51,621 bases of DNA from Gammaproteobacteria bacterium. GTDB lineage: Bacteria; Pseudomonadota; Gammaproteobacteria; UWMA-0217. Below the pieces are notes generated by a model that worked only from the letters and a program-made list of their open reading frames with translations, did no database searches and was not told where the DNA came from. Location: NCBI GenBank assembly GCA_026981985.1, contig JALSHZ010000105.1:1-51621 (forward strand), in the 5' to 3' direction. Shown piece after piece: positions 1,273-18,110 of the stretch (position 1 is its first letter; each line of letters starts with the position of its first letter). The position numbers and the translations under genes are program-made.

Positions 1273-2763
1273 TCAAATGACAACGAACTGCCCCATCATC
1301 CCGGCATCCTCGTGTTCGAGGATGTGGCAGTGGAACATGTAGGGATTATCTGGATCAGAATAATTTTCAAACTGGGTGATGATCCGCACCGTCTCTCCAG
1401 CATCCACCAATACCGTGTCTTTCAGTCCCATCTCGTTAGCCGGCGGGCGCTGACCGTTCCGATCAAGAATTCGGAACTGGATATCATGAATATGAAACGG
1501 ATGTGGCATTGGGGAATCATTGCGAATTTCCCATATTTCCACGTCACCCAGCCGAATGCGTTCATCGATGCGTTTGATGTCCATCGCCTTGCCATTGATG
1601 GTAAACCCATTACCGAACATCATGGCTGGCCCCATACGCATATCAAGAACCATTTTCCGTGTTTTGGCAGCATCACGTGACGCCCAATTGCGGACTTTCA
1701 CCAGATGACTTGGTAGTGCGCTTTTTGCAGCGACCGGCGTGGTGGCGCGGAATTGCATGATCTCGAAGGGTTGGTCGTCTGCCCCCATCATCATCCCCAT
1801 CATGCCGCGTGACACAGCCCGACGGTTTGGCAGCGGTTTGTGTCGCAGTACGACATTATCATCAGGCGAAAACTCAACAACGATTTCAGCCCGCTCACCT
1901 GGTGCCAGGCGCAGTTGTCGCAGCGCGACAGGCCTCGCCAGCAACCCACCATCGGTTGCAATCTGCTGCATCGTCCGCCCGTCGCTGAATTCAAGATTGT
2001 AAATACGTGCATTGGAACCATTGAGAATACGGAGGCGCATCAGCTTGCTGGCCACCTGATGGACGGGAAAAGGCGCACCATTGACCAACATGACATCACC
2101 TTTCATTCCAGTCATTCGGTCACGCATCGACGACATATAGGAAAAACTACCATCGCTATTGAAACTGCGATCCTGGAGTACGAGTGGAATATCGTCGACA
2201 CCGTATTCCGATGGTAAATGCAAACGGTCTGCGGCATCGTCGTCGATATAAAAAAGTCCGGCAAGCCCGAAATAGACTTGCACCGCAGTACGGTGATACA
2301 TGTGGGCGTGATACCACTGCGTCGATGCTGGCTGACGAATATCGAATTCCGGCGACCAGGTCTGCCCTGGACGAATGACCTGATGCGGCCCACCATCCAT
2401 GATCGCTGGAAGGTGAACACCATGCCAATGCAGGGTCGATGCCTCAGACATTGTGTTGGTCACATTAATACGCAGCTTGTCGCCACGCCGGGTACGCAAT
2501 ACCGGCCCGAGGTAGTCGCCATTGATACCTGCACTGGGTGTCGCCAGCGCGGGGAAGAATTCATGTCGGCCTCGCTGGAGTGACAGATCGAACACGCGCC
2601 GGCCATTATCGATTTCCCCTTCCAACTGCTCGGGGATGGGCAAAGGCCGGACAAATTTTTCAATCGCTGGCTTCGCGCTCAGTTCACCCGCCCGGTACAA
2701 GGGCAAGGCAAGACCCGCCGCACCTACAACCGCTGCCTTGAGTACAAAACGTCTTGATACCAT
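1273..2763 (-). CDS. Periplasmic multicopper oxidase (CopA/CueO-like)
   Basis: A 496-residue three-cupredoxin oxidase. The copper-binding motifs are all present in order: HWHG, YHAH, HPFHIH and a terminal [13 protein letters not shown]. The N terminus (SRRFVLKAA followed by a hydrophobic run) is a Tat-type signal, so folded copper-loaded protein would be exported to the periplasm. A Met-rich stretch (RGMMGMMMGAD) lies between domains 2 and 3, as in cuprous oxidases. The start at 2763 follows GGAG; the frame stays open to 2904, but that extension runs into the promoter. Likely role: oxidation of Cu(I) to Cu(II) in copper tolerance, under the MerR regulator at 211. Confidence 0.9.
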   Translation of the reverse strand: MVSRRFVLKAAVVGAAGLALPLYRAGELSAKPAIEKFVRPLPIPEQLEGEIDNGRRVFDLSLQRGRHEFFPALATPSAGINGDYLGPVLRTRRGDKLRINVTNTMSEASTLHWHGVHLPAIMDGGPHQVIRPGQTWSPEFDIRQPASTQWYHAHMYHRTAVQVYFGLAGLFYIDDDAADRLHLPSEYGVDDIPLVLQDRSFNSDGSFSYMSSMRDRMTGMKGDVMLVNGAPFPVHQVASKLMRLRILNGSNARIYNLEFSDGRTMQQIATDGGLLARPVALRQLRLAPGERAEIVVEFSPDDNVVLRHKPLPNRRAVSRGMMGMMMGADDQPFEIMQFRATTPVAAKSALPSHLVKVRNWASRDAAKTRKMVLDMRMGPAMMFGNGFTINGKAMDIKRIDERIRLGDVEIWEIRNDSPMPHPFHIHDIQFRILDRNGQRPPANEMGLKDTVLVDAGETVRIITQFENYSDPDNPYMFHCHILEHEDAGMMGQFVVI

Positions 2764-3040: not shown

Positions 3041-5704
3041 TCACTCGATGCGGAAGAATCCCATCATGCCTGCATCTTCATGCTCAAGAATGTGACAGTG
3101 GTACATGTAGTCACCCTTGTTGACTGCCGGGTCGAAGCGGCCAATGAAGCGCACCGTTTCTCCGGGCTGAACCAGCACGGTGTCTTTCCAGCCCAGATCG
3201 ACGCCACTGCCAGGTTTGCCGTTACGATCGAGGATCTGCCACTGAATCGCATGCGCATGGAACGGATGCGCCATGGGCGACATGTTGCGGATCGACCAGA
3301 TCTCGGTATCGCCTTCAGCCAGCTTGATCACCTCGTCGATACGATTTATGTCGAAGACCTTGCCATTGATGACGAAAGTCATACCGGCCATGCCGCCGCC
3401 AGAGCCCATATTGCCACCGGGGCCCATGCCATCGCCTGATCCCATGTTGCCCATATTCATGGTCATCACGAAATCACGCGTCTTGCTGGCATCCGACTCG
3501 GTCAGGCGCTGGGTATTGATCTCTGCATTGGCCGGCAACGCGGTGTACAGCGTTACGTCGTCGGTAACTTCTGTCGCAATGTCGAAGCGCATGATGTCTA
3601 GATACATGCCATTGGGTTGCATCGCCATGTTGCCCATGTCCGAGCCAGAACCCATGTCTGAGCCAGAACCCATGTCTGAGCCAGAACCCATGTCTGAGCC
3701 AGAACCCATGTCTGAGCCAGAGCCCATGCCCGAGCCAGAGCCCATGCCCGAGCCAGAGCCCATGCCCGAGCCCATGCCTGAACCATTCATGCCACCCATG
3801 CTACCCATGCCAGCCATTGGGCCACCACTGAAAGCACGACTGATCAACATGACTTTGTCACCCACTTTGTAGTTGGCAAAATCAACAACAATCTCCGCCC
3901 GTTCGGCGGCGCCGAGCATGATATGGTCAGTTTCTACTGGCTGCGGCAACAGACCACCATCGGTACCAACCACTTTGAACTTGGCGCCATCACTGAGCGC
4001 AAAATCATAAGTGCGCGCATTGGAGGTGTTGTAGATACGGAAACGATACTGTCTTGTTTCCACATCGAGCTTCGGCAGGACCACGCCGTTGACCAGTACC
4101 TTGTCCCCCAGCATGCCACCGCTATCCATTTCCTCGGTCATGTATTCGAGTTCACGAACGCCGTTCGTCTCATCGGCAAACCGGCGATCCTGAACCAGCA
4201 ACGGAATATCGTAGTCTGCTGCTGGCAGCTTTTTATCGGCTACCAACTGGGTAGAAATATCATCTTCCAGCAGAAACACACCGGCCAGTCCACGATACAC
4301 CTGTTTACCCGTTTTCATATCCGGGTGGGGATGGAACCACAGCGGAGCCGCAGGTTGCAGCATCTGAAAGCTGTAAGTCTTGCTCTCATTTGCCTCGACC
4401 GGAAAGTCAGGGCCACCATCCTGGTCACCCGGGATTTTGAAACCATGCCAGTGAATGGTCGTTTCCTCATTCAGCTTGTTTTCAAGATTCAATGTCATGA
4501 ACTCGCCACGCTTGGCTTTGATGACCGGAGGCAGTTCCATGCCGTTGTATCGCAACATCGGCGTCGTCCATGTCTGACCCGGCGCCTTGATGGTGACATC
4601 GACACCCGGTGTGGCCGTCAACGTGTAAGTCTGTGCGTTGTTGGCGGGATCACCGTCTTCATCAGTGAGAACGGGCAGGAAATTGAATGCGGGAAGATTG
4701 TCGGCAGCCAACAAGGTTTGTGTATTGGCCTGGGCAGCTTCACTCTTCTTTCTCAGGTCATCGAAGTATGAGGTGTCGATGCCAAGCTTCTCCAAGCGTC
4801 CACGTTCCGCCTCGGAGAGATCACCGCTGGCAATGCGGTCGATCGTTCGCGTCATCAGACGCGACCTTGCCTGCCCATAACTGGTTTTCTGGTCGAGATC
4901 AGCAAGACTACGGTCTTTGCCGCTTCGATCAGTTACCGATACAGGCCGTCCACTCTTATCCTTGCCATCCAGCTTGTTATCGCCCAAGTCCCTGGCACGG
5001 GCATCGATCAAATCGAAAACCGCTTCCGGGCTGAGGTTGAGCGCATCCGCTTCGTAGGAAAAGCTGATAGCACGATTCCGCGCCAATGCTTCACGCTGAT
5101 CGGCCGGTAAGTCCTGGCTGAGGTCGCCAATCAGAAACAGCTCATCGCCCGGTACGCCCATTGCCGGGTTGGTGCCCTGGATCAGCTGCTCTTGCACCGT
5201 TTTTCTCGCACCGGCAATGGCCTCAGACGGCGTCTTGCCAGAAGCCACCATCTCCTTCACCAATTCCGCCATCAACGTGGTTTCAGGGGTCATCGCCAAT
5301 ACCTGGCGGTTTTTGATGATGTCGCGAAGCTCGCCAGCAGTAAAAGCCGTCATCAGACCATTGCTACCCGGAGACACCGGCTGCCCGGTCGCTTCATCCG
5401 TGTACTGCCCACCCGTTGTTTCAACAAAGACCACCTGATCATCTGCTGGCAATGTCAAACCATCGAGTTCAAATTTGCCATTCTTGCTGCCGCCCGTCGC
5501 AAGAATATTGCCGGCCGCATCAAGTACCCGCACGGTTGCCCCATCGATGGGTCCTTTGAACGCGCTGCCAAACAAGGTCGTGACCGAAGCGCCCGAAGTA
5601 CCAGAAGCGCCGTCCGTAACCTGCGTTGTGCCGTCATTACATGCGGCCAGCGCGGTAACACCGATTGCAAGCGCAACAGCCTTGAAGAGTGTTGTTTTTT
5701 CCAT
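3041..5704 (-). CDS. Lipoprotein multicopper oxidase with N-terminal extension and Met-rich repeats
   Basis: About 887 residues. The N terminus has a lipoprotein signal with lipobox LAAC (Cys22), so it is probably membrane-anchored. Residues 35-380 form an extension that opens with a carboxypeptidase-regulatory-like fold ([18 protein letters not shown]) and continues as charged helix. The oxidase part (about 385-887) has HWHG near 417, a HPHPD motif, HPFHAH, and [13 protein letters not shown] from residue 869, so all copper sites look intact. Residues about 631-695 are an insert of GSGM/GSDM repeats, suited to Cu(I) binding. The usual family length is near 500. The ATG at 5704 is favoured for the signal peptide; 5719 is an alternative. 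The substrate may be copper or another metal. Confidence 0.85.
3634..3780 (-). repeat. In-frame 18-bp tandem repeat encoding Met-Gly-Ser-Gly-Ser-Asp units
   Basis: The unit GAGCCAGAACCCATGTCT (plus strand) and close variants recur in frame, giving repeated [12 protein letters not shown] segments inside the multicopper oxidase. The copies are almost identical in DNA, so copy number could vary by slippage and change the number of exposed methionines. Confidence 0.85.
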
Positions 5705-5831
5705 ATTTGATAAACCCATTATTTTTACTGACTGATTTTCGAGCACATTCACCGCCACCAGGGTTAAGCGATATCGTGCACCAACGTGGGCTAAATTCGC
5801 ATGGCGGTGCGAGCGGTTGACGCCCGAGGTG

Positions 5832-5861
5832 AAAAAAAGCGCGAAACCCGCTGATGGCGGG
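5832..5861 (-). terminator. Possible terminator between the outer-membrane barrel and the multicopper oxidase
   Basis: On the minus strand a short hairpin CCCGC-CATCA-GCGGG is followed after a few bases by a run of seven T. It lies in the 251-base gap after the gene ending at 5956. If real, the oxidase gene at 5704 has its own promoter in the remaining ~130 bases, although I see no clear -35/-10 pair there. Confidence 0.4.
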
Positions 5862-5955
5862 ATCAGCGGTATCAATATGACGATGAAATGGAGAAAGCAG
5901 TATTCAGCGGACTAGCCCCCGGGGGACAGGGAGCCTGTAAATTCTGGGACTGGCG

Positions 5956-7014
5956 TTAAAAATCGTGGACGAGCCGAACAGACACGGCAAAAAACCTCTC
6001 TCGACCGTCGTTGAGGTTCGATGAATAGATGCCTGCAGAAAAATCACCCTTTAGCCACAGCCTATTGCGCAGACGGTGGCTGAGCGCGATAAACGAAAAT
6101 AGCGTGAGGTCCTCTCGTTTTTTGGCTGCATTAATGCCTGTTGCAGGCATCACCAGCGAAGCACCATCAGGCGCAGTCCCCTGCATTCCATCATCATCAC
6201 TATTCATGCCATCCCCCGGCGCGTTGCGCATGCCAGGGCCAGCACCCGGAATTCTGCTATTGCTTTTCTCGTAAAAATCCCATTTCGATTCAACGCCCGC
6301 CTGCAGCCGCGTCTGGCCAATCTTCCATTGGCGTATCGTCGCGCCGAGCGAATAGGCTGTGTAGTCTCTACTGGGGACTGTGGCATCATTGCGCGTCAGC
6401 GCTGCTGTCACGCTCACTCCCGGCGCGTTTCTGGCATGGGGGAAATATTGCGTCAAGCTCAAGCGGCTACGTGTCGTATCGTAACGGTCGGTGTCGACTT
6501 CGCGGTGATTTTCTCGTTTGATGCGCAAACCAACATCGACACCACTAGCACGCTTGCCAAGATAGCCGAGCGTGGTGCTCACTGAGACGCCGCTGTAACT
6601 GTTCAGTGGCAGCGGTTCATTGTCGTGGTAACGTGCCGTCGCCACAGCCCGCAGCAACCAGGTGGGTGACAGTGCCAGCAGGCGCATGGCCGATGCGGAT
6701 GCGTTGGCGATATCGTTGCCCGTATCGCTACCACCAGCAATACCCTGGTTGTAGCTTGCAGTGGCATTCACGCCCCAGCCACCATCAACTTTCAGGGACT
6801 GGCGCGCCAGTGACAACAGCAGCTCGGTGCCTTGCCGACTCAGATCACCGCTGCCTTCACCGGCGCTCGGTGTCTGCACTTCGAGGTTGTCTGTATAGCT
6901 GTATCCCAGGCCAATGCTGGCCGCGGTATCTGCCATGACAAATCCGGGTGTCACACACAGCAGAAGGCCGCTGCATGCAGCGGCCTTGAACATTCCGAAA
7001 TCGGCTGATGTCAT
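5956..7014 (-). CDS. Outer-membrane beta-barrel protein, unknown function
   Basis: A 352-residue protein with a signal peptide (ends near GFVMA-DT), alternating polar/aromatic strands and a terminal Phe (RLVHDF), typical of proteins inserted by the BAM complex. One long loop (about residues 245-290) is rich in Gly, Asp and Met (PGMRNAPGDGMNSDDDGM), echoing the Met-rich inserts of its neighbours and suggesting metal contact at the cell surface. The start codon overlaps the stop of the DUF3106-type gene (ATGA, 7011-7014), so the two are translationally coupled. I cannot assign a family name; capture or export of metal is inference from context. Confidence 0.75.
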   Translation of the reverse strand: MTSADFGMFKAAACSGLLLCVTPGFVMADTAASIGLGYSYTDNLEVQTPSAGEGSGDLSRQGTELLLSLARQSLKVDGGWGVNATASYNQGIAGGSDTGNDIANASASAMRLLALSPTWLLRAVATARYHDNEPLPLNSYSGVSVSTTLGYLGKRASGVDVGLRIKRENHREVDTDRYDTTRSRLSLTQYFPHARNAPGVSVTAALTRNDATVPSRDYTAYSLGATIRQWKIGQTRLQAGVESKWDFYEKSNSRIPGAGPGMRNAPGDGMNSDDDGMQGTAPDGASLVMPATGINAAKKREDLTLFSFIALSHRLRNRLWLKGDFSAGIYSSNLNDGRERFFAVSVRLVHDF

Positions 7015-7571
7015 CGATGCTTCATCCTCTCGGACATTTCTTCCATCATCTCCGGCATCGACATGCCACTATCAGGGTCCATCATGTTATGCATCCCTTC
7101 CATTTGCCCCATGCCTTCACCCGGCATCATGTGACCACCACGGTGCTGGAATTCCTTGAAACGCTGCATCATCATCTGCTGCTGCTCGGGCGACATTTGC
7201 TGAAACATGCTGTGCGTCTCCATTAACCGCTGCCGCTCGCTATCCGGCAGGCTGCGAAATCTCGCATAAGCCTGTTCCATGGACAGACGATGCTCGGGAC
7301 TCATCGACTGCCAACGCTGAAAACGTGCCCACAGCAGGTTACGGCGATCGGCAGGCAGGGCCAGCCAGTGCTCACCATTTCGCAACAGATTTTGGCGTTT
7401 TTCAGCATCCAGTGATGCCCAATCGTTACGGTATTCACCCAGCAAGGTTTGCATCTCCGGGCTAAGCTGCTGCCAGGTTTCTCGATCAGACTGTTCAGCC
7501 ATCGATACCGACGCAGCCAGCACCAGTAACAGCACCATGAGACCAGTGATGCGCAGGAAATCAACGCGCAT
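7011..7571 (-). CDS. Secreted Met-rich DUF3106-type protein
   Basis: A 186-residue protein with an N-terminal signal peptide (RVDFLRITGLMVLLLVLAAS), then helical repeats with the motifs LSPEMQ, MSPEHR and MSPEQQ typical of DUF3106 proteins, and a C-terminal tail rich in Met and His (HMMPGEGMGQMEGMHNMM). The ATG at 7571 follows GGGGGAGG. It overlaps the small upstream gene by 11 bases and the barrel gene downstream by 4. DUF3106 genes usually follow an ECF sigma factor and a membrane anti-sigma protein, as here. The tail could bind copper in the periplasm; no function is established. Confidence 0.8.
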   Translation of the reverse strand: MRVDFLRITGLMVLLLVLAASVSMAEQSDRETWQQLSPEMQTLLGEYRNDWASLDAEKRQNLLRNGEHWLALPADRRNLLWARFQRWQSMSPEHRLSMEQAYARFRSLPDSERQRLMETHSMFQQMSPEQQQMMMQRFKEFQHRGGHMMPGEGMGQMEGMHNMMDPDSGMSMPEMMEEMSERMKHR

Positions 7572-7809
7572 GGCGCACCTCCCCCGTTTCATCACCCGGC
7601 GCTTCGACAGCACTTTCAGCCCCACGCTGCACCTGCTGTGTCGTGGCGAACTGGGCCAGCGCTTCGAATTCATTATCACTGAGCCGCTCGAGCAACGGCA
7701 GTTGTTCCAGAAACCCCTTCGGCAACGTCAGCGGCGGTGCGTCGCTGGCGATGACCAGACTGGTCAACAGCATTGAGAGCCAAAAGGATAGGCGGTTCAA
7801 TCGAATCAT
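7561..7809 (-). CDS. Small secreted protein in the ECF sigma operon
   Basis: An 82-residue product with a hydrophobic N-terminal signal (SFWLSMLLTSLVIASDA) and an acidic helical part (LPLLERLSDNEFEALAQFA). It resembles no family I can name. The ATG at 7809 has only a weak upstream GGAT. The first 134 bases overlap the 3' end of the anti-sigma gene in another frame, and its last 11 bases overlap the DUF3106 gene. The clean signal peptide in an overlapped frame argues that it is real. Alternatively, the upstream gene really stops earlier and the overlap reflects a frameshift. Confidence 0.6.
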   Translation of the reverse strand: MIRLNRLSFWLSMLLTSLVIASDAPPLTLPKGFLEQLPLLERLSDNEFEALAQFATTQQVQRGAESAVEAPGDETGEVRHAR

Positions 7810-8284
7810 CGGCGGTATCCAGTAACAGGTAAGCGGTTCTTACAGCACCGACGGCACTGCGCTGATCATCGTGCCCGGCGCTGCCTTTCTGCTGCGCGAG
7901 CCAGCGGTAAAAATCCAGGTGTTCGACCAGTTCGACAGGGGTATCGGTGTCTTTAACCCACAACGGCATCTGGGCCAGCAAACGGTTCTCGCCTGGTTCA
8001 ACCACCGGTTGTTGTGCGGTCATCTGCGCAGCATTATTTTGCTGCCCTAAATCGCCAAACTGCGTAACGACCAGAACAACCGCCACCACAGCGGAAAAGG
8101 CGGTTGCCAATGATACGCCAACCACCGGCCGCAGCCATTGGCGCTGTTTTCGCTGCTGATGCAACGCCACCGCCTCACGCGTCAGCTGCTGCAACCGCCG
8201 ATGGTGTTTTTGCGCCAGCTCATCGGCACGAGCATCGAGATACTCCCCCGCCTTATCCAGCTTGCCATGGTGATCATTGTTCAT
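7676..8284 (-). CDS. Membrane anti-sigma-factor-like protein (DUF3619-like)
   Basis: A 202-residue protein: a cytoplasmic helical N terminus (LDARADELAQKHHRRLQQL), one transmembrane helix (VVGVSLATAFSAVVAVVLVV, about residues 51-70) and a periplasmic part containing VELVEHLDFYRWLAQQ. This is the shape of single-pass anti-sigma factors of the DUF3619 kind that accompany ECF sigma genes. The ATG at 8284 starts one base after the sigma stop, behind GAGG. The last ~55 residues after the FYRWLAQQ motif look unlike the family and are read in an overlap with the next gene, so the true C terminus may be shorter. Confidence 0.7.
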   Translation of the reverse strand: MNNDHHGKLDKAGEYLDARADELAQKHHRRLQQLTREAVALHQQRKQRQWLRPVVGVSLATAFSAVVAVVLVVTQFGDLGQQNNAAQMTAQQPVVEPGENRLLAQMPLWVKDTDTPVELVEHLDFYRWLAQQKGSAGHDDQRSAVGAVRTAYLLLDTADDSIEPPILLALNAVDQSGHRQRRTAADVAEGVSGTTAVARAAQ

Positions 8285-8285
8285 A

Positions 8286-8867
8286 TCAGTGGTCCTCATC
8301 GACCCAGTCACTGAGCGCTTCACGCAGCGCCGTCATCGCGCGCGACAGATGCGTTTTAATGCTGCCCTCAGAGCAGCGCATGATGCTGGCCGCATCGCGT
8401 GTACTCAACCCCTGCCACTGGCGCAGCAAATAAGCTTCTTGCTGTCGAGCTGGTAAGGCACGCAACGCGGCTTCAAACTCGGCGGCCAGTTCGCCGCTCA
8501 TCAAGTCGGCATGCACCGGATTGTCTGATTCCGGGTCCACCAGCTCGGATTCATAGCTACTCTCGTGACCATTCTCGTCGTCTTGCCGCCCGCCAAATTG
8601 CGAAAACAGTGAGATATGGGCCAGCTTCTGCCGCCACTGCGTTTTGCGCTGCCAGTCCGTAATTCGCCGCGTGAGGATCTTGTAGAACAGATTCGTCCAC
8701 GCCTCCTCATCATAGCTATCCGCAGCCTTTACAAAACCCATCATTGCCTCCTGCAGCAAGTCGAGGGCCGTGTCTTCATTGCCAAGACGAAAGGTGGCAA
8801 AGGCCAACCCTTTGCCACGCATCCGCGTCAAAAAGCGTTCGATGGCGCGTTCCCTGTTGTCGTTCAA
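8286..8867 (-). CDS. ECF-type RNA polymerase sigma factor
   Basis: A sigma-70 region 2 (GNEDTALDLLQEAMMGFVKA, then WTNLFYKILTRRITDWQR) and a region 4 helix-turn-helix (LPARQQEAYLLR ... GLSTRDAASIM ... SEGSIKTHLSRA). About 193 residues if it starts at TTG 8867, which has AGGGA seven bases upstream; a GTG at 8960 would add 31 residues unlike the family. The anti-sigma gene follows after one base. Probably directs transcription of this envelope/metal cluster in response to periplasmic stress. Confidence 0.85.
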   Translation of the reverse strand: MNDNRERAIERFLTRMRGKGLAFATFRLGNEDTALDLLQEAMMGFVKAADSYDEEAWTNLFYKILTRRITDWQRKTQWRQKLAHISLFSQFGGRQDDENGHESSYESELVDPESDNPVHADLMSGELAAEFEAALRALPARQQEAYLLRQWQGLSTRDAASIMRCSEGSIKTHLSRAMTALREALSDWVDEDH

Positions 8868-9101
8868 GCGCTTGTCCCTAAATGGCTCCGACAGCGCTGT
8901 GCGGAGCGTATATTTCCAGCAAGCGAGCCGCCTCGAACGGGCGGATGGCAGGTTCAACACCTTGGCCCTCTGCCCCTAGATTCGCGTGGCATCACTATCG
9001 GTTGACACGATATGCGGAACCGTCTGTCAGCCATCGACAACAACAGCCCGCAGGTACTACCGCCCGCCCAGGAGGCTAGCGGTATTGCAGTTCAGGAAAA
9101 C

Positions 9102-9434
9102 TCAGACGAGTGGAGGGGGAAGCTCCGGTGCTCGGGGACGAAAGGTCATGGCCAGTGTATGGCACACACCCTCATAAGAGCGGGTATAGGGAAAGACAAT
9201 CTCAAAGCTGTCGAGCGGCCCAAACAGGTGGCAACATGGGCAGTTGAAACAATCACCATCACAACCGTCATGCGCGAAGGTGCAACCCGACATCTTCTCA
9301 TGCAGAGTCGAGTAATTCACGTCTGCAGCTACCGCATCATGATGACTGCCTACCATCGGCGCAGCACTTACCGCCGAAGTCAGCACCATGAACAGGAGCA
9401 AAGACAGCAATGTAATCAGTAAAGCTTTTAACAC
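9102..9434 (-). CDS. Small secreted Cys-rich protein (metal-binding peptide, CzcI/CopL-like style)
   Basis: A 110-residue product with a signal peptide ending near SAVSA, then His31-His32 and a dense Cys cluster (Cys51, 58, 62, 65, 67, 68, His69), ending in a proline tail (RPRAPELPPPLV). The layout of signal, CxxC/H cluster and Pro-rich tail recalls the small periplasmic proteins that precede czc or cop efflux genes, and it matches the one at 11967. The start is GTG 9434 with a poor ribosome-binding site, so the N terminus is uncertain. Metal sensing or buffering in the periplasm is inference. Confidence 0.62.
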   Translation of the reverse strand: MLKALLITLLSLLLFMVLTSAVSAAPMVGSHHDAVAADVNYSTLHEKMSGCTFAHDGCDGDCFNCPCCHLFGPLDSFEIVFPYTRSYEGVCHTLAMTFRPRAPELPPPLV

Positions 9435-11820: not shown

Positions 11821-11951
11821 GCCGCCCAACGTCAGCAATCATGACTCGCTGGCGCACAAACAAAAGGTATTTCTTTTCAACAAACGGGTCCTTTTCCGGC
11901 ACCGTGATCGACCATTCCTCGGGCTAGCGCTTGCAGAATAGGCATGACCGT

Positions 11952-11966
11952 GGCAATGTCATTGCC
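11952..11966. promoter_or_regulatory. Dyad abutting the start of the czc unit
   Basis: GGCAATG-T-CATTGCC is a perfect 7+7 dyad ending directly before the GTG start at 11967. It contains GCAATGTCAT, shared with the palindrome at 9873-9888. A protein bound here, or an RNA hairpin, would block translation or transcription of the first gene. Confidence 0.45.
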
Positions 11967-12275
11967 GTGAAAAGACTGCTATCCCTCATTCTGGTGTTGA
12001 CCGCCCTGCTAGCCAATGTTTCCTGGGCGACGGACTCGCACAGCGAAGCGTGGGTCGGGCATGGTGCCGAAGTCAGCCAGGGCTGGATGGTAGACGACCA
12101 TGACAACGATCACGCTGGCTGCGATCATTGTTGTCACGGATTTGCACACATCGTCGGCCTTGCGCCGCAGCTATCCCAATTGATGCCAATTCCATTACGG
12201 ACGACGGTTTCACTGCCCGAACGCCGCTACCGCAGCCATTCTCCCGCGCCACTGATTCCCCCTCCCAACGCCTGA
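11967..12275 (+). CDS. czcI: CzcI-like small periplasmic His/Cys protein
   Basis: A 102-residue product with a signal peptide (KRLLSLILVLTALLANVSWA), a His/Asp-rich stretch and the cluster CDHCCH (Cys52-His57), then a Pro-rich tail (PLIPPP). Small proteins of this design precede czcCBA in other bacteria and are thought to affect induction of the efflux pump. The GTG at 11967 gives a proper signal peptide; the frame is open to 11931. It lies 69 bases before the outer-membrane component of the same efflux system. The symbol is by analogy of position and motif. Confidence 0.62.
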   Translation: MKRLLSLILVLTALLANVSWATDSHSEAWVGHGAEVSQGWMVDDHDNDHAGCDHCCHGFAHIVGLAPQLSQLMPIPLRTTVSLPERRYRSHSPAPLIPPPNA

Positions 12276-12344: not shown

Positions 12345-13607
12345 ATGTCAAGAATTGCATTGTTTATGGCCGTGCTGCTGGTCTTGTGGGCACCCGTGCG
12401 CACCGTGCTGGCTGCACCGGAAAGTACGGCATCCAACACCACGACACTCAACCGCCTGACAGACTTTGTCCGGAAGGTGCAAGAACGCAGCCCGCAAATT
12501 CGTGCGCTAGACGCCGCGTTGGACGCGGCCATAGCGCGCTTCGACGCCGCTGGAAAACCCCTCTACAACCCGGAACTGGAACTGGATGCCGAAAATCCGG
12601 GCAGCCGTACCATTGGCATCAGCCAGACGCTGGACTGGGCTGGAAAGCGCGATGCCCGCAGTAAGGTTGCGGATCATGCTTTGCGTGCAGCAGCAGCCGA
12701 AGTCGAGCTGGCCCGACAGGCGCTGGCTGGCGAGCTGTTGAAAGGATTGGCGGAATACAGCACCGCCGCAGCTCTGAACCGCCTCGCAAACGAGAAAATG
12801 AAGCTGATGCAGCAGTTCGCCGATATCGCCCAACAACGGCAGGCGGCTGGCGATCTGGACCAGGTGGAGTTCGAGCTGGCCAGGCTGGCAGCGCTGGAAG
12901 CATCACTCGAAGCGGCGAGCCTCGCCACCCGCCTTGGCGAAGCCAACAGCAAGCTTGTCGCACAGACCGGCCTGGCGGAAAAAAGCTGGCCTGATCTGCC
13001 AATGGCACCACCTTTGTCACCCGCCATCTCTACCGATACCGCAACGCTGCTACAGCAACATCCGGCATTACGCATACGCCAGTTCACTGCGGAATCCGCC
13101 AAAGCCACAACCGAGTTGCGCAGACGCGAGGCGCGGCCGGACCCCGCCGTCGGCCTGAGAGTGGGCCGCGATGCCGATGACACGTTGACGGGTCTGACCT
13201 TTTCCATGCCGCTGCTGATTCGCAATCGCTTTCAGGCCGAAATCGCTGAAGCATCGGCACTGGCCAACCAGGCCCGCCTCGATATGGCGGCAATCCGGAT
13301 CAAGCTGGCGAGCAATATCGACGCTGCACGCACGCGCTACCAACTGGCGCGCAGCACCTGGGACCATTGGCAACAACAGGGGGAAACCCTGCTCCAGCGC
13401 CGCGGCAAACTGCTGACACGGCTTTGGCAAACCGGTGAGCTGAGCACCACTGATTATCTCGTGCAACTGCGGCAGACCCTCGACACGCGCAGCGCCGCTG
13501 CGGAATTGCGCGGCAAGCTATGGCGATCCTGGGCTGACTGGCAGCAGGCCAGCGGCACGATCTTGCAGTCGCTGCACATCGCCACGCCCAACACAGATAC
13601 CGAATAG
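12345..13607 (+). CDS. czcC: Outer-membrane efflux channel of an RND metal pump (CzcC-like)
   Basis: A 420-residue TolC-family protein with a signal peptide (ends VLAAP) and two long coiled-coil helical hairpins separated by strand segments (NPELELDAENPGSRTIGISQ; PAVGLRVGRDADDTLTGLTF). It would trimerise into the channel that carries metal from the CzcA pump through the periplasm and out. GAGGATC precedes the ATG. The membrane-fusion gene follows after 9 bases. Confidence 0.88.
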   Translation: MSRIALFMAVLLVLWAPVRTVLAAPESTASNTTTLNRLTDFVRKVQERSPQIRALDAALDAAIARFDAAGKPLYNPELELDAENPGSRTIGISQTLDWAGKRDARSKVADHALRAAAAEVELARQALAGELLKGLAEYSTAAALNRLANEKMKLMQQFADIAQQRQAAGDLDQVEFELARLAALEASLEAASLATRLGEANSKLVAQTGLAEKSWPDLPMAPPLSPAISTDTATLLQQHPALRIRQFTAESAKATTELRRREARPDPAVGLRVGRDADDTLTGLTFSMPLLIRNRFQAEIAEASALANQARLDMAAIRIKLASNIDAARTRYQLARSTWDHWQQQGETLLQRRGKLLTRLWQTGELSTTDYLVQLRQTLDTRSAAAELRGKLWRSWADWQQASGTILQSLHIATPNTDTE

Positions 13608-13616
13608 GAACACACC

Positions 13617-14855
13617 ATGAACAAACCGCTTTCCAAACTTTTCCTGCTGGCAGTCCTGCTTGGCCTCGGTGTCAACGGCTGGTCAGGCAGCAAAGCACAT
13701 GATCACGCAGAAAGTCACGCAAAGCATGACGATTCCGAAGAACACGAAGAACACGGAGAACACGGAGAACACGGAGAACACGGAGAACACGGAGAACACG
13801 GAGAACACGGAGAACACGGAGAACACGGAGAACACGAAGCCGGAGTAGTTGAGCTCAGTGCCAAGCAGCAGCAAGCTGCGGGTATCGTTGTGCAAACACT
13901 CGAACCACGACAGCTGGCCGCCGATATCCGTGCTCCCGGCGAAGTAATGCTGAATGCCTATCGCAGCAGCAAAGTGACGCCACGCGTGACGGCCCAGATC
14001 GTCACACGCCATGTCACCCTTGGCGACCGCGCCGCACAGGGGCAAAAACTGGTGACATTGTCGAGCGTGGAGATGGCTGAGGCACAAGGCGCATTGCTGG
14101 TCGCCGACCGTGAATGGCAGCGGGTGAAAAAACTCGGCGCCAAAGTCGCTTCCCAGCGGCGCTATACCGAAGCACAGGTAAATCGCCAGCTGGCCTGGGC
14201 CAAAGTCAGCGCCTATGGCATGACACCCAAGGAAATCAACGCACTGCTCAAATCAGGCAATGCGCGCAAGGCCAATGGCGAATTCAACCTGCTGGCCGCA
14301 CGTGCAGGCACGATCGTCGAGGATAACTTCATCGAAGGCGCCGTCGTTGGGCCCGGCCATGTGCTGATGACCATCACCGATGAAAGCGCGGTATGGGTTG
14401 AAGCCAGGCTGACACCGACACAATTGACCCAGATCAGCAAGGGTGCCCGCGCCAGCGTGCTGACGCCAAACGGCGAACTGGTCGGGAAAGTCACCCAAAT
14501 CCACCATATCGTCGACGAAGCTTCACGCACCATTGCCGTGCGCATCAGCGTCGACAACCCGGAGGATCGTATCCATCCCGGCGAATTCGTCGATGTAATG
14601 TTGCAAACGAATGCCAAAGAAATGGCACTCGCCGTACCCGACACCGCACTGGTGCGCGGTGCCGATGGCGACTGGCAGCTATTCATTGCTGAACATGATG
14701 GTGAATTTCGCGCGGTCGAAGTCGACGTGCTCGATACACGTAGCGGCTATACACGCATCACCGGGCTGGAACCCGGCGCTCGCATCGTCACCGAGGGCGC
14801 GTTCTTCCTGCAATCAGAACTGGCTAAAAGTGGCTTCGATGTACACAACCACTGA
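13617..14855 (+). CDS. czcB: Periplasmic adaptor of an RND metal pump (CzcB-like) with His-Gly-Glu repeat
   Basis: A 412-residue HlyD/membrane-fusion protein. After a signal peptide comes an exceptional stretch of HGE repeats (about residues 42-74), then lipoyl-like and helical-hairpin segments ([34 protein letters not shown]) and the beta-barrel domain ([12 protein letters not shown]). The His/Glu run is a natural Zn/Ni/Co/Cu ligand array and may collect periplasmic metal for the pump. The 9-bp DNA repeat behind it is nearly perfect, so its length may vary between strains. Confidence 0.9.
13740..13838 (+). repeat. 9-bp tandem repeat coding for Glu-His-Gly
   Basis: Nine perfect GAACACGGA units (13749-13829) are flanked on each side by a GAACACGAA variant. 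In frame they encode EHG units of the adaptor protein. Identical units imply recent expansion by slippage. Confidence 0.95.
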
Positions 14856-14927
14856 CGCCTCTTTCCTCCCGATCAACACCCACGCCCCTGCTGAACAAAA
14901 GCAGGGGCGACACCACCGGATTTCATC

Positions 14928-17900
14928 ATGCTGAACAAGATAATCGACGCCGCTGTTGCCAACCGCCTGCTGGTGATCTTGGCGCTACTGGCCATCATGG
15001 CAGGTGGCGCCATGATACTGCCAAAACTCAACCTGGATGCCTTCCCTGACGTGACCAATGTTCAGGTGACGATCAACACAGAAGCCAAAGGGCTCGCTGC
15101 CGAAGAAGTCGAGCAGATCATTACTTATCCGGTCGAGGCTGTCATGTACAGCCTGCCCGACGTGGAGGAAGTACGCTCCATTTCAAAAACAGGCCTGTCC
15201 ATCATCACCGTCGTCTTCAAAGAAGGGACGGATATTTATTTTGCACGGCAGCTGGTTTTCGAGCAGCTGCAAAATGCGCGGGAAAATATTCCGGAGGGTG
15301 TCGGGACGCCGGAAATGGGGCCCAACACTTCCGGGCTCGGTCAGATATTTCAATACATGTTGCGTGCGGATAATGCGGAAAAATTCGACGCCATTTCCCT
15401 GCGCAGTCTCAATGACTGGGTGGTCAAGTTACTGCTGATGCCCGTCGATGGCGTGACTAACGTACTTTCTTTTGGTGGCGAAGTACGCCAATACCAGGTG
15501 CAGCTCGACCCCGCCAGATTGCTCGCCTATCAGCTCAGTGCCAGCAATATCGCTGCGGCCATCGAGGAAAACAATCGCAACGCCGGCGGCTGGTACCTGG
15601 ACCGTGGCGCTGAACAATTGGTCATCCGTGGTGTTGGCTGGGTTCACAGCGGCGAGGCGGGACTGCGCGATATTGCCAATATTCCGCTCAAAGAAGGCGA
15701 CGGCATCGTTGTTCGCGTCAGCGATGTCGCCGATGTCCGGTTCGGCGGCGAAATTCGCCAGGGGGCTGTGACCATGACCACACGCGATGAAAACGGCCAG
15801 GCAAAACATCTTGGCGAGGTCGTGGTCGGCATCGTCCTCAAACGTCTTGGCGCCAACACGAAAGCCACCATCGACAGCATCCGTGAACGCCTGCCTGCCA
15901 TCCAGCAGGCGCTACCAGATGGCGTCTTGCTGGAACCGTTCTACGACCAGTCCGAGCTGGTGGAAAAAGCAGTCGACACGGTCACCAAGGCGCTGTTGCA
16001 GGCCTTCACACTGATCATTGTCGTATTGGCGCTGTTTCTGATGAATTTGCGCGCCACGCTGCTCGTTCTACTCTCGATTCCGATCTCCATCGGGCTGGCG
16101 CTGATGATCATGGCCTACTATGGTATCTCCGCCAACCTGATGTCACTGGGCGGATTGGCCATCGCCATTGGCATCATGATCGATGGCTCGGTGGTGATGA
16201 TGGAACATATTTTTTCCCATCTGACCCGCCCCGATGAATTGCACCGCGAGGCCATCGAGCACGATGTCGCACCCGGTGACACGCAGCCATTCGACACCCG
16301 TGGCGACCACGGTATGGCACTGCGTATTCAGGAAGCAGCGCGGGAAGTGGGGCAGCCGGTATTTTTTGCCGTGTTGATTATTACCATCGTGTTTGCCCCA
16401 CTGTTCACACTCGAAGGTGTAGAGGGAAAACTCTTTCAACCCATGGCGATCGCCATTGTGCTGGCCATGCTGTCATCTCTGATGGTTGCATTGATCGTTA
16501 TTCCGGCACTCGCGACCTATATTTTCCCGCGCGGCGTTCAGGAAAAGGAAAGCCCGCTGTTACAACCGGTCGCAAAGCTATACCGCATCGCTCTCGAAAA
16601 AGCCCTGAAACTCAGAAGCGTGGTGACAGCTGTTGCATTGGCGTTATTTATTGGCGCACTGGCCCTCATTCCCTTTCTTGGCACCGAATTCGTACCCGAA
16701 CTGGAAGAAGGCACGCTCAATATACGTGTCACACTGGCGCCGTCTTCCAGCTTAAATACCTCGTTACAGGTCGCCCAGAAACTCGAGCAACAGCTCATCA
16801 CTTTTCCTGAAGTGCTGTATACATCCAGCCGCATCGGCCGAGCGGAACTGGGCGGTGACCCGGAACCCGTCTCCAACATCGAGATCTTTGTCGGCCTGAA
16901 ACCACAGCGGGAATGGTCCAGCGCCGCCGACCGATCTACATTGCAAGCGCTAATGGAAGAAAAAATGCAGATAATGCCCGGACTGCTGTTTACTTTTTCA
17001 CAGCCGATCGCCACACGGGTCGATGAACTTTTATCGGGCGTCAAAGCACAATTGGCCATCAAACTATTCGGGCCAGATCTCGATGTGCTGGCGGATAAGG
17101 GGCAGGAAATATTGCAACTGACGCAAAATACCGACGGCACGCGTTCGGTGGAAATGGAACAAATCGCCGGTGAAGCACAACTGGTGGTACGCCCGAATCG
17201 TGACAAACTCGCGCGCTATGGCATCGCAGTAGCCCAGGTCATGGAGCTGGTGTCCGGCGCCATTGGCGGACGAACTGCCGGACAGGTGATTTCCGGCAAC
17301 GAGCGCTACGATATCTACGTACGCCTTGCCGAACCCTATCGCAACAGCGTCGAAGCCATTCGCGATCTGATACTGCAATCGCCAAGTGGCGCCTGGGTGC
17401 GGCTGGATGATGTCGCCGAAGTCACTATCGCGACAGGACCACCCCAAATCCGGCGCGATGATGTGCAACGCCGGGTTGTCATACAAGCCAATGTCGAAGG
17501 ACGTGATATGGGCGGACTGGTAGCAGAACTGCGGCAACGGATCGATGCGGAAATCGAACTGCCACCTGGCTACAGCGTCGTCTTCGGCGGCCAGTTCAAA
17601 AATCAGCAACGGGCCCAGCAGCGGCTGATGATCGTCGTTCCACTGTCGCTCGGGTTGATTTTTCTGCTGCTCTACTTTGCTTTCAGGTCGGTGGGCCAGG
17701 CGTTGCTGATCATGCTGAATGTGCCCCTGGCCACCATCGGAGGCATCGCCGCCCTGTTTATTTCAGGCCAATATCTGTCGGTACCCGGATCAATTGGCTT
17801 TATTGCCTTGTCCGGTATCGCAGTGCTCAATGGCGTGGTGCTCGTCAGCGCCATCAACCGCCGTGTAGAAGATGGCTTACCCATCGATGAAGCAGTTTTT

Positions 17901-18110
17901 TCCGGCGCATTCTCGCGCCTACGTCCGGTACTGATGACAGCACTGACCACGGCACTCGGCCTGATTCCGATACTGCTCGCCACTGGCGTTGGCTCCGAAG
18001 TGCAACGTCCACTGGCAACGGTGGTCGTCGGTGGTCTTTTCTCGTCTACGCTGCTGACGCTGTTCGTACTGCCGGTACTCTATCGGGTGTTTTCGCGCGG
18101 ACGCTTATGA
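14928..18110 (+). CDS. czcA: Heavy-metal RND efflux pump (CzcA/HME family)
   Basis: A 1060-residue inner-membrane proton antiporter of the HME-RND type. LNLDAFPDVTNVQV at the N terminus, 12 membrane segments and two large periplasmic loops are typical. The transmembrane motif is AIAIGIMIDGSVVMMEH (411-427), with Asp419 and Glu426. The DFG aspartate of Zn/Co-type CzcA is replaced by AIG, which is nearer to the CusA style, while DG and the Glu are kept. The metal is therefore uncertain and could be Ni, Cu/Ag or another. It lies 72 bases after the adaptor gene. Confidence 0.9.
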   Translation: MLNKIIDAAVANRLLVILALLAIMAGGAMILPKLNLDAFPDVTNVQVTINTEAKGLAAEEVEQIITYPVEAVMYSLPDVEEVRSISKTGLSIITVVFKEGTDIYFARQLVFEQLQNARENIPEGVGTPEMGPNTSGLGQIFQYMLRADNAEKFDAISLRSLNDWVVKLLLMPVDGVTNVLSFGGEVRQYQVQLDPARLLAYQLSASNIAAAIEENNRNAGGWYLDRGAEQLVIRGVGWVHSGEAGLRDIANIPLKEGDGIVVRVSDVADVRFGGEIRQGAVTMTTRDENGQAKHLGEVVVGIVLKRLGANTKATIDSIRERLPAIQQALPDGVLLEPFYDQSELVEKAVDTVTKALLQAFTLIIVVLALFLMNLRATLLVLLSIPISIGLALMIMAYYGISANLMSLGGLAIAIGIMIDGSVVMMEHIFSHLTRPDELHREAIEHDVAPGDTQPFDTRGDHGMALRIQEAAREVGQPVFFAVLIITIVFAPLFTLEGVEGKLFQPMAIAIVLAMLSSLMVALIVIPALATYIFPRGVQEKESPLLQPVAKLYRIALEKALKLRSVVTAVALALFIGALALIPFLGTEFVPELEEGTLNIRVTLAPSSSLNTSLQVAQKLEQQLITFPEVLYTSSRIGRAELGGDPEPVSNIEIFVGLKPQREWSSAADRSTLQALMEEKMQIMPGLLFTFSQPIATRVDELLSGVKAQLAIKLFGPDLDVLADKGQEILQLTQNTDGTRSVEMEQIAGEAQLVVRPNRDKLARYGIAVAQVMELVSGAIGGRTAGQVISGNERYDIYVRLAEPYRNSVEAIRDLILQSPSGAWVRLDDVAEVTIATGPPQIRRDDVQRRVVIQANVEGRDMGGLVAELRQRIDAEIELPPGYSVVFGGQFKNQQRAQQRLMIVVPLSLGLIFLLLYFAFRSVGQALLIMLNVPLATIGGIAALFISGQYLSVPGSIGFIALSGIAVLNGVVLVSAINRRVEDGLPIDEAVFSGAFSRLRPVLMTALTTALGLIPILLATGVGSEVQRPLATVVVGGLFSSTLLTLFVLPVLYRVFSRGRL

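Follow-up and report, generated by a model that had tools for sequence, protein, structure and literature searches.

A conserved, rare ECF sigma factor operon with a lipoprotein multicopper oxidase, most likely for copper oxidation at the outer membrane

Results

We analyzed a 51,621-nucleotide stretch of gammaproteobacterial DNA (contig JALSHZ010000105.1, assembly GCA_026981985.1), here called the window. On its minus strand, six genes run from position 8867 to 3041 and encode an extracytoplasmic function (ECF) sigma factor, a membrane anti-sigma factor, a small secreted protein, a DUF3106 protein, an outer-membrane barrel and a lipoprotein multicopper oxidase (MCO). We conclude that they form a real, conserved and rare operon, whose function is most likely ECF-controlled copper oxidation at the outer membrane. 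At the sequence level, this is supported by a distinct clade of sigma, anti-sigma and DUF3106 proteins encoded together with the barrel and the lipoprotein MCO, and by an ECF-type promoter element shared by both units. An earlier reading of the letters alone (the sequence-only reading) had placed the six genes at 3041-8867 on one strand, and these coordinates fit, from the TTG start codon at 8865-8867 to the MCO end at 3041.

Searched against 369 genomes of the class, a barrel profile matched nine, which belong to four families, and gave one further marginal match. The same nine genomes gave the nine best DUF3106 scores, well above those of ordinary DUF3106 proteins, among the 92 genomes with any match, and the gene order was identical in the barrel-profile loci. 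When the DUF3106 profile was scanned across ~85,000 named genomes, 14 loci were recovered, all from metagenome-assembled genomes (MAGs) labelled Gammaproteobacteria or Thiotrichaceae. All 14 contained the full operon or most of it, in the order sigma, anti-sigma, small protein, Met-tailed DUF3106 and 14-strand barrel; in most, an MCO, usually the lipoprotein, then followed the barrel. Joint conservation of the operon genes extends to at least four families, which is the co-occurrence on which the sequence-only reading had staked its proposal.

In a sample of the phylum, the barrel profile matched the window's own genome alone among 398, and the cluster is thus rare. It was absent from a genome of the same genus (G001), and in a tree the window sigma grouped with Thiotrichaceae sigmas and not with the sigma of G004, a member of its own family. 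From these two observations, horizontal transfer of the cluster is likely. The record names HyVt and AMOR suggest that the MAGs originate from hydrothermal vents.

Both transcription units of the window are preceded by the same promoter element. The pattern GTCAACC-N15/16-CGA is kept 5' of the sigma genes, and in the window it occurs with N15 on the minus strand at 9006 (P1, 8982..9006, 5' of the sigma gene and kept in relatives) and at 5821 (P2, 5797..5821, 5' of the MCO gene). The element was also present in 12 of 12 MCO gaps at loci where the gap was available (the L086 contig ends before the gene, and the MCO start of L088 is estimated); since the pattern was derived from sigma-side sites, these gaps are the fairer test. 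Across the 14 loci, the 6.1 kb of target DNA contained 24 of 27 matches and the other 384 kb (both strands) only 3, a 500-fold enrichment for which the p-value is too strong because the loci are related; the barrels encoded between the two sites are nevertheless just 20-35% identical to the window barrel. The window holds three matches against 0.33 expected from shuffles, and we take the third (41232, plus strand), inside a predicted coding region, as chance. As a genome-wide regulon finder, the pattern was rejected as too loose, with 28 matches in the window's own genome against 17 for a reversed-pattern control, and we therefore claim the element only for the two window sites.

Ordinary ECF sigma/anti-sigma/DUF3106 sets, present as a second copy in the same genome (G000:C31), resemble the operon in their order of sigma, small membrane anti-sigma and DUF3106 and in a GTCAACC -35. 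They differ in having no Met tail, no barrel and no MCO, in falling into separate clades, and in their -10: GTCAACC-N14/16-CGTT was found 5' of the sigma gene in 14 of 22 ordinary loci, whereas the operon loci had CGA in 13 of 14 and CGTT in none. We infer from these sites that the sigma factor transcribes both the operon that encodes it and the MCO gene, and that its -10 preference differs from that of its same-genome paralogue. An effect of the sigma factor on the oxidase gene had been expected by the sequence-only reading and, as far as sequence tells, is borne out by the promoter element that the MCO gene shares with the sigma operon.

Several further sites were noted. GTCAACC-N-CGTT is common to ordinary sets (for example, L080, L083 and L184:5412) and is probably the autoregulatory promoter of the whole ECF group. 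At L097:9033 (G195) and L077:2605 (G059), the operon's element precedes another gene for a CueO-like MCO, which is likely to belong to the regulon as well. A gene for a multihaem cytochrome c (L077:6554-8428) separates the barrel from the MCO in G059, with the near-match GTCAACG before it; the sister genome G195 has no cytochrome there. The G002 operon (L094, G002:C21) has no sigma gene, and the near-match GTCAACT precedes its anti-sigma gene.

The window sigma factor (8286..8867, minus strand; Pfam Sigma70_r2/r4) belongs to a single clade formed by the sigma proteins of the operon loci, with full support (100/100) and apart from the sigmas of ordinary DUF3106 sets. It ends in ...ALREALSDWVDEDH soon after region 4, with no Cys-rich C-terminal extension. 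The anti-sigma gene occupies 7676..8284 on the minus strand, its start at 8284 being inferred from homologues within a frame open from 8323. Its homologues were found in all operon loci and have in common the N-terminal helix, one transmembrane stretch and the motif P.WV.D..P..L.E..FY.W. The small secreted protein (7561..7809, minus strand) shares the motif APP.TLP..F...LP.L in an alignment with its L026 and L027 homologues. Pfam gave no family for the window anti-sigma, small secreted protein or barrel. The C-terminal extension of the window anti-sigma (7676-7850) overlaps the small secreted protein gene in a different frame, and a similar extension occurs in Thiotrichaceae loci (L093, L095, L096 and L099) and not in other families.

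The DUF3106 protein (7011..7571, minus strand; Pfam DUF3106, 7e-19) is a possible sensor with a Met/His-rich C-terminal tail. This tail reaches 13 Met per 40 residues, first among the 43 proteins of the window (median 3), and Met makes up 17.6% of it in 16 operon members versus 2.3% in 23 ordinary ones. In trees, the DUF3106 proteins of operon loci form their own clade with full support, separate from ordinary DUF3106. A likeness to sigma/DUF3619/DUF3106 sets had been noted earlier; a DUF3106 gene does lie behind the sigma and anti-sigma genes, while the DUF3619 part is weak, matching 2 of 15 anti-sigmas with a best E of 0.001. For a CnrX/Spy-like fold, the sensor fold expected of a metal-sensing ECF system of the CnrYXH type, neither the sequence nor the model, by Foldseek or a second aligner, gave a PDB match, which does not exclude that fold.

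The MCO gene (3041..5719, minus strand; start at 5719 or 5704) encodes a lipobox, then ~330 residues without a Pfam family, and then CueO-like domains with an (MGSGSD)n insert (coding stretch 3587..3832, minus strand). Three Pfam Cu-oxidase domains were recognized, and the protein scored 316 bits (4e-94) against NCBIfam CueO, under the cut-off of 525. In the alignment, the copper-ligand motifs HWHG, HPHP, HPFHAH and HCHILEH...M are intact and the lipobox Cys is invariant in 8 of 8 MCOs; identity in relatives is 55-69%. The insert has 9 Met per 40 residues, second of the 43 window proteins, and relatives carry a Met-rich insert at the same place. A lipoprotein oxidase with a Met-repeat insert, as first described from the letters, is thus upheld by the invariant Cys, the three domains and the Met density. 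Outer-membrane lipoproteins follow the +2 rule of Lol sorting. No aligned lipoprotein MCO has Asp at +2, and by this rule the MCO is a predicted outer-membrane lipoprotein; its exposure at the surface is plausible. Pfam found no TbpB-like cargo domain in it. Three MAG contigs (L091, L093 and L096) break off within the Met-rich repeat of the MCO, and such genes are therefore probably under-assembled in metagenomes.

The barrel (5956..7014, minus strand) was modelled by AlphaFold with 14 strands (pLDDT 80.6, pTM 0.74); it begins directly after the signal peptide, with no N-terminal TPR domain, and its nearest solved folds are CymA (Z 22) and OmpG (Z 20). Between strands 11 and 12, the model has a long disordered segment bearing Met and Asp (loop 254-299; coding stretch 6118..6255, minus strand), which is predicted to be extracellular because strand 11 runs outward if both barrel ends are periplasmic. 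With 4 Met in 51 residues, the window loop is unremarkable taken singly; in an alignment of 15 barrels that includes the window's, 12 carry 2-8 Met at this loop. Thus, of the three Met-rich exported proteins proposed by the sequence-only reading, the DUF3106 tail and the MCO insert stand out clearly, and the barrel loop does so only in company with its relatives. The interpretation given by that reading is supported in part: for its surface system across the outer membrane, the MCO is predicted to lie in the outer membrane and the loop outside it, and an outward orientation of the MCO is plausible.

Barrels of relatives are 20-35% identical to that of the window. An identity with CopB/PcoB was rejected: with E values as high as 1 allowed, PF05275 matched none of 15 members, and hhalign gave 1.3%. 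Against the SlipAM/DUF560 profile, hhalign gave 81% (1.2e-5) across 185 columns reaching the C-terminus, compared with 0.2% for Phenol_MetA_deg and below 2% for reversed or shuffled controls; the score ranged from 5% to 81% with alignment subsets. PF04575 (SlipAM) matched 1 of 15 barrels at E 0.0035, the best Pfam match of that member. We regard a DUF560/Slam kinship as a lead rather than a classification.

Discussion

Among the metals, copper has the best support, both from association and from the type of oxidase: the MCO resembles CueO and carries a Met-rich insert, and copper genes flank the operon or its sigma gene in relatives. The operon neighbours a copper_res_A oxidase and CopB in L095 and L099, and CueO and a CopA-type ATPase in G004. 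In G002, the sigma gene is on another contig (L183, G002:C432), where its neighbours are CopB, an MCO and a MerR regulator that shares 53% identity with the window MerR. Mn and Fe, which had been named beside copper at the outset, are less well supported.

On balance, we lean towards an ECF-sigma-controlled outer-membrane system that would oxidize Cu(I). The DUF3106 protein, perhaps together with the small secreted protein, would sense excess copper in the envelope through its Met/His tail and so relieve the membrane anti-sigma. The freed sigma factor would transcribe its own operon and the MCO gene, and the MCO would reach the outer membrane by the Lol pathway, where its Met-rich insert may gather Cu(I) for oxidation to Cu(II). 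Its partner in the outer membrane would be the 14-strand barrel, whose outer loop bears Met and which would serve either to conduct copper or to hold or translocate the oxidase. Several points weigh against this proposal. The operons of L098, G004 and G002 have no lipoprotein MCO directly behind the barrel, and L099 has a CueO with a twin-arginine translocation (Tat)-type start there, so that lipid anchoring is not universal. Three aligned barrels have no Met in the loop, the DUF3106 sensor role is without structural support, and the identity of the metal rests on homology and neighbouring genes.

It is possible, with a clearly smaller probability, that the operon instead serves a periplasmic detoxification like that of PcoAB/CopAB, with the MCO anchored facing the periplasm and the barrel acting as a copper efflux pore analogous, not homologous, to PcoB. 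An MCO encoded with a Met-bearing outer-membrane barrel is indeed the PcoAB plan; PcoB has a Met/His-rich region and stabilizes PcoA (PMC12509749). The window's own genome has no CopB, and the barrel fold resembles the monomeric porins CymA and OmpG. However, the Met part is a predicted extracellular loop and not a periplasmic N-terminal region, no profile links the barrel to CopB, and CopB is also present in several loci, so that the barrel is not simply its replacement. The operon further differs from Pco/Cop in that its MCO, a lipoprotein, resembles CueO and not copper_res_A, and in being under an ECF sigma factor rather than a two-component system. The MCO resembles CueO itself in its domains, copper motifs and Met-rich insert before the last domain, but where CueO has a Tat signal it carries a lipobox and a long N-terminal region of no assigned family, and it stays under the CueO model cut-off.

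A reading in which the barrel is related to DUF560/Slam (type XI secretion) barrels, lacks their TPR domain and delivers the lipoprotein MCO to the cell surface seems unlikely to us. DUF560 barrels carry lipoproteins to the surface, with the cargo often encoded nearby (PMC8406197), and the operon shares with them 14 strands, an adjoining lipoprotein gene and a distant profile match that far exceeds those to CopB, Phenol_MetA_deg and the controls, one member having SlipAM as its best Pfam match. Partial TPR deletions in NilB cause a defect that is relieved when its N-terminal periplasmic domain is deleted entirely (PMC8406197). Yet the profile score varies widely with alignment subsets, most members stay under Pfam level, the MCO has no TbpB-like cargo domain, some loci have no lipoprotein MCO, and the nearest solved folds are CymA and OmpG. 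Equally doubtful is a fuller scheme in which a metal-induced, TPR-less type-XI-like translocator would display the Met-rich lipoprotein MCO on the surface, copper would be oxidized outside the cell, and the ECF sigma would have split in -10 specificity from its ordinary same-genome paralogue. That the outer-membrane enzyme oxidizes Fe(II) or Mn(II) and is tied to extracellular electron transfer seems improbable: porin-MCO clusters have been hypothesized for Fe(II) oxidizers (PMC5566968), the MAG names point to vents and G059 has its multihaem cytochrome gene, but this gene is absent from the sister G195 and the other loci, and the MCO type, the Met-rich parts and the neighbours are all of the copper kind. 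That the six genes are chance neighbours and no single system is very hard to credit; the division of sigma and operon over two contigs in G002 is all that speaks for it, and it is contradicted by the conservation of order, clade and promoter element across families.

An ECF sigma factor linked with an MCO gene is also known from CorE of Myxococcus, which senses copper by its own Cys-rich C-terminal extension (PMC10141476); the operon sigma has no such extension and is paired with a membrane anti-sigma instead, an arrangement that matches other ECF systems under anti-sigma control. In the open-access literature searched, which leaves most subscription journals outside, we found no paper on this gene combination, in line with the sequence-only reading, and no mention of DUF3106. 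The proposed system would add to copper defence an ECF-sigma route with a lipoprotein copper oxidase and its own outer-membrane barrel, in uncultured Gammaproteobacteria seemingly from metal-rich vents. It would also offer the first clue to what DUF3106 proteins do, their tail being Met-rich in no clade but the one with a copper oxidase in the regulon. In addition, the two paralogous sigmas, with an apparently common -35 and a differing -10 (CGTT or CGA), form a natural pair in which promoter specificity is testable.

Neighbouring genes

The sequence-only reading described the six operon genes and missed four neighbouring features. Located 5' of the sigma gene, a Cys/His-rich small secreted protein (9102..9434, minus strand) is a possible accessory and resembles the pre-sigma small proteins of L093, L095 and L096; those of L095 and L099 have weak CopL scores. 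Downstream of the operon, another CueO-like MCO (1273..2763, minus strand), whose start is of the Tat type, scored 472 bits against NCBIfam CueO (3e-141; cut-off 525) and is 64% identical to the G004 MCO; no P2-like element was found 5' of it. Between the two MCO genes, near 2945-2980, a GC-rich palindrome followed by T's is by eye a possible terminator, missing from the terminator scan list. Searches of the window's own genome gave no further MCO match, no CopB and no SlipAM protein.

The other two omissions are a MerR regulator (166-669) and a CusCBA/CzcCBA-type pump (12345-18110, plus strand), which lies with a porin and a cytochrome c on the plus strand beyond the operon. Just before the pump genes, a second small secreted protein bearing His and Cys (11931-12275) has a weak DUF2946 match and is distantly like that at 9102-9434. 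The pump adaptor (13617-14855) carries a long (HGE)n repeat behind its signal peptide, which is likely metal-binding.

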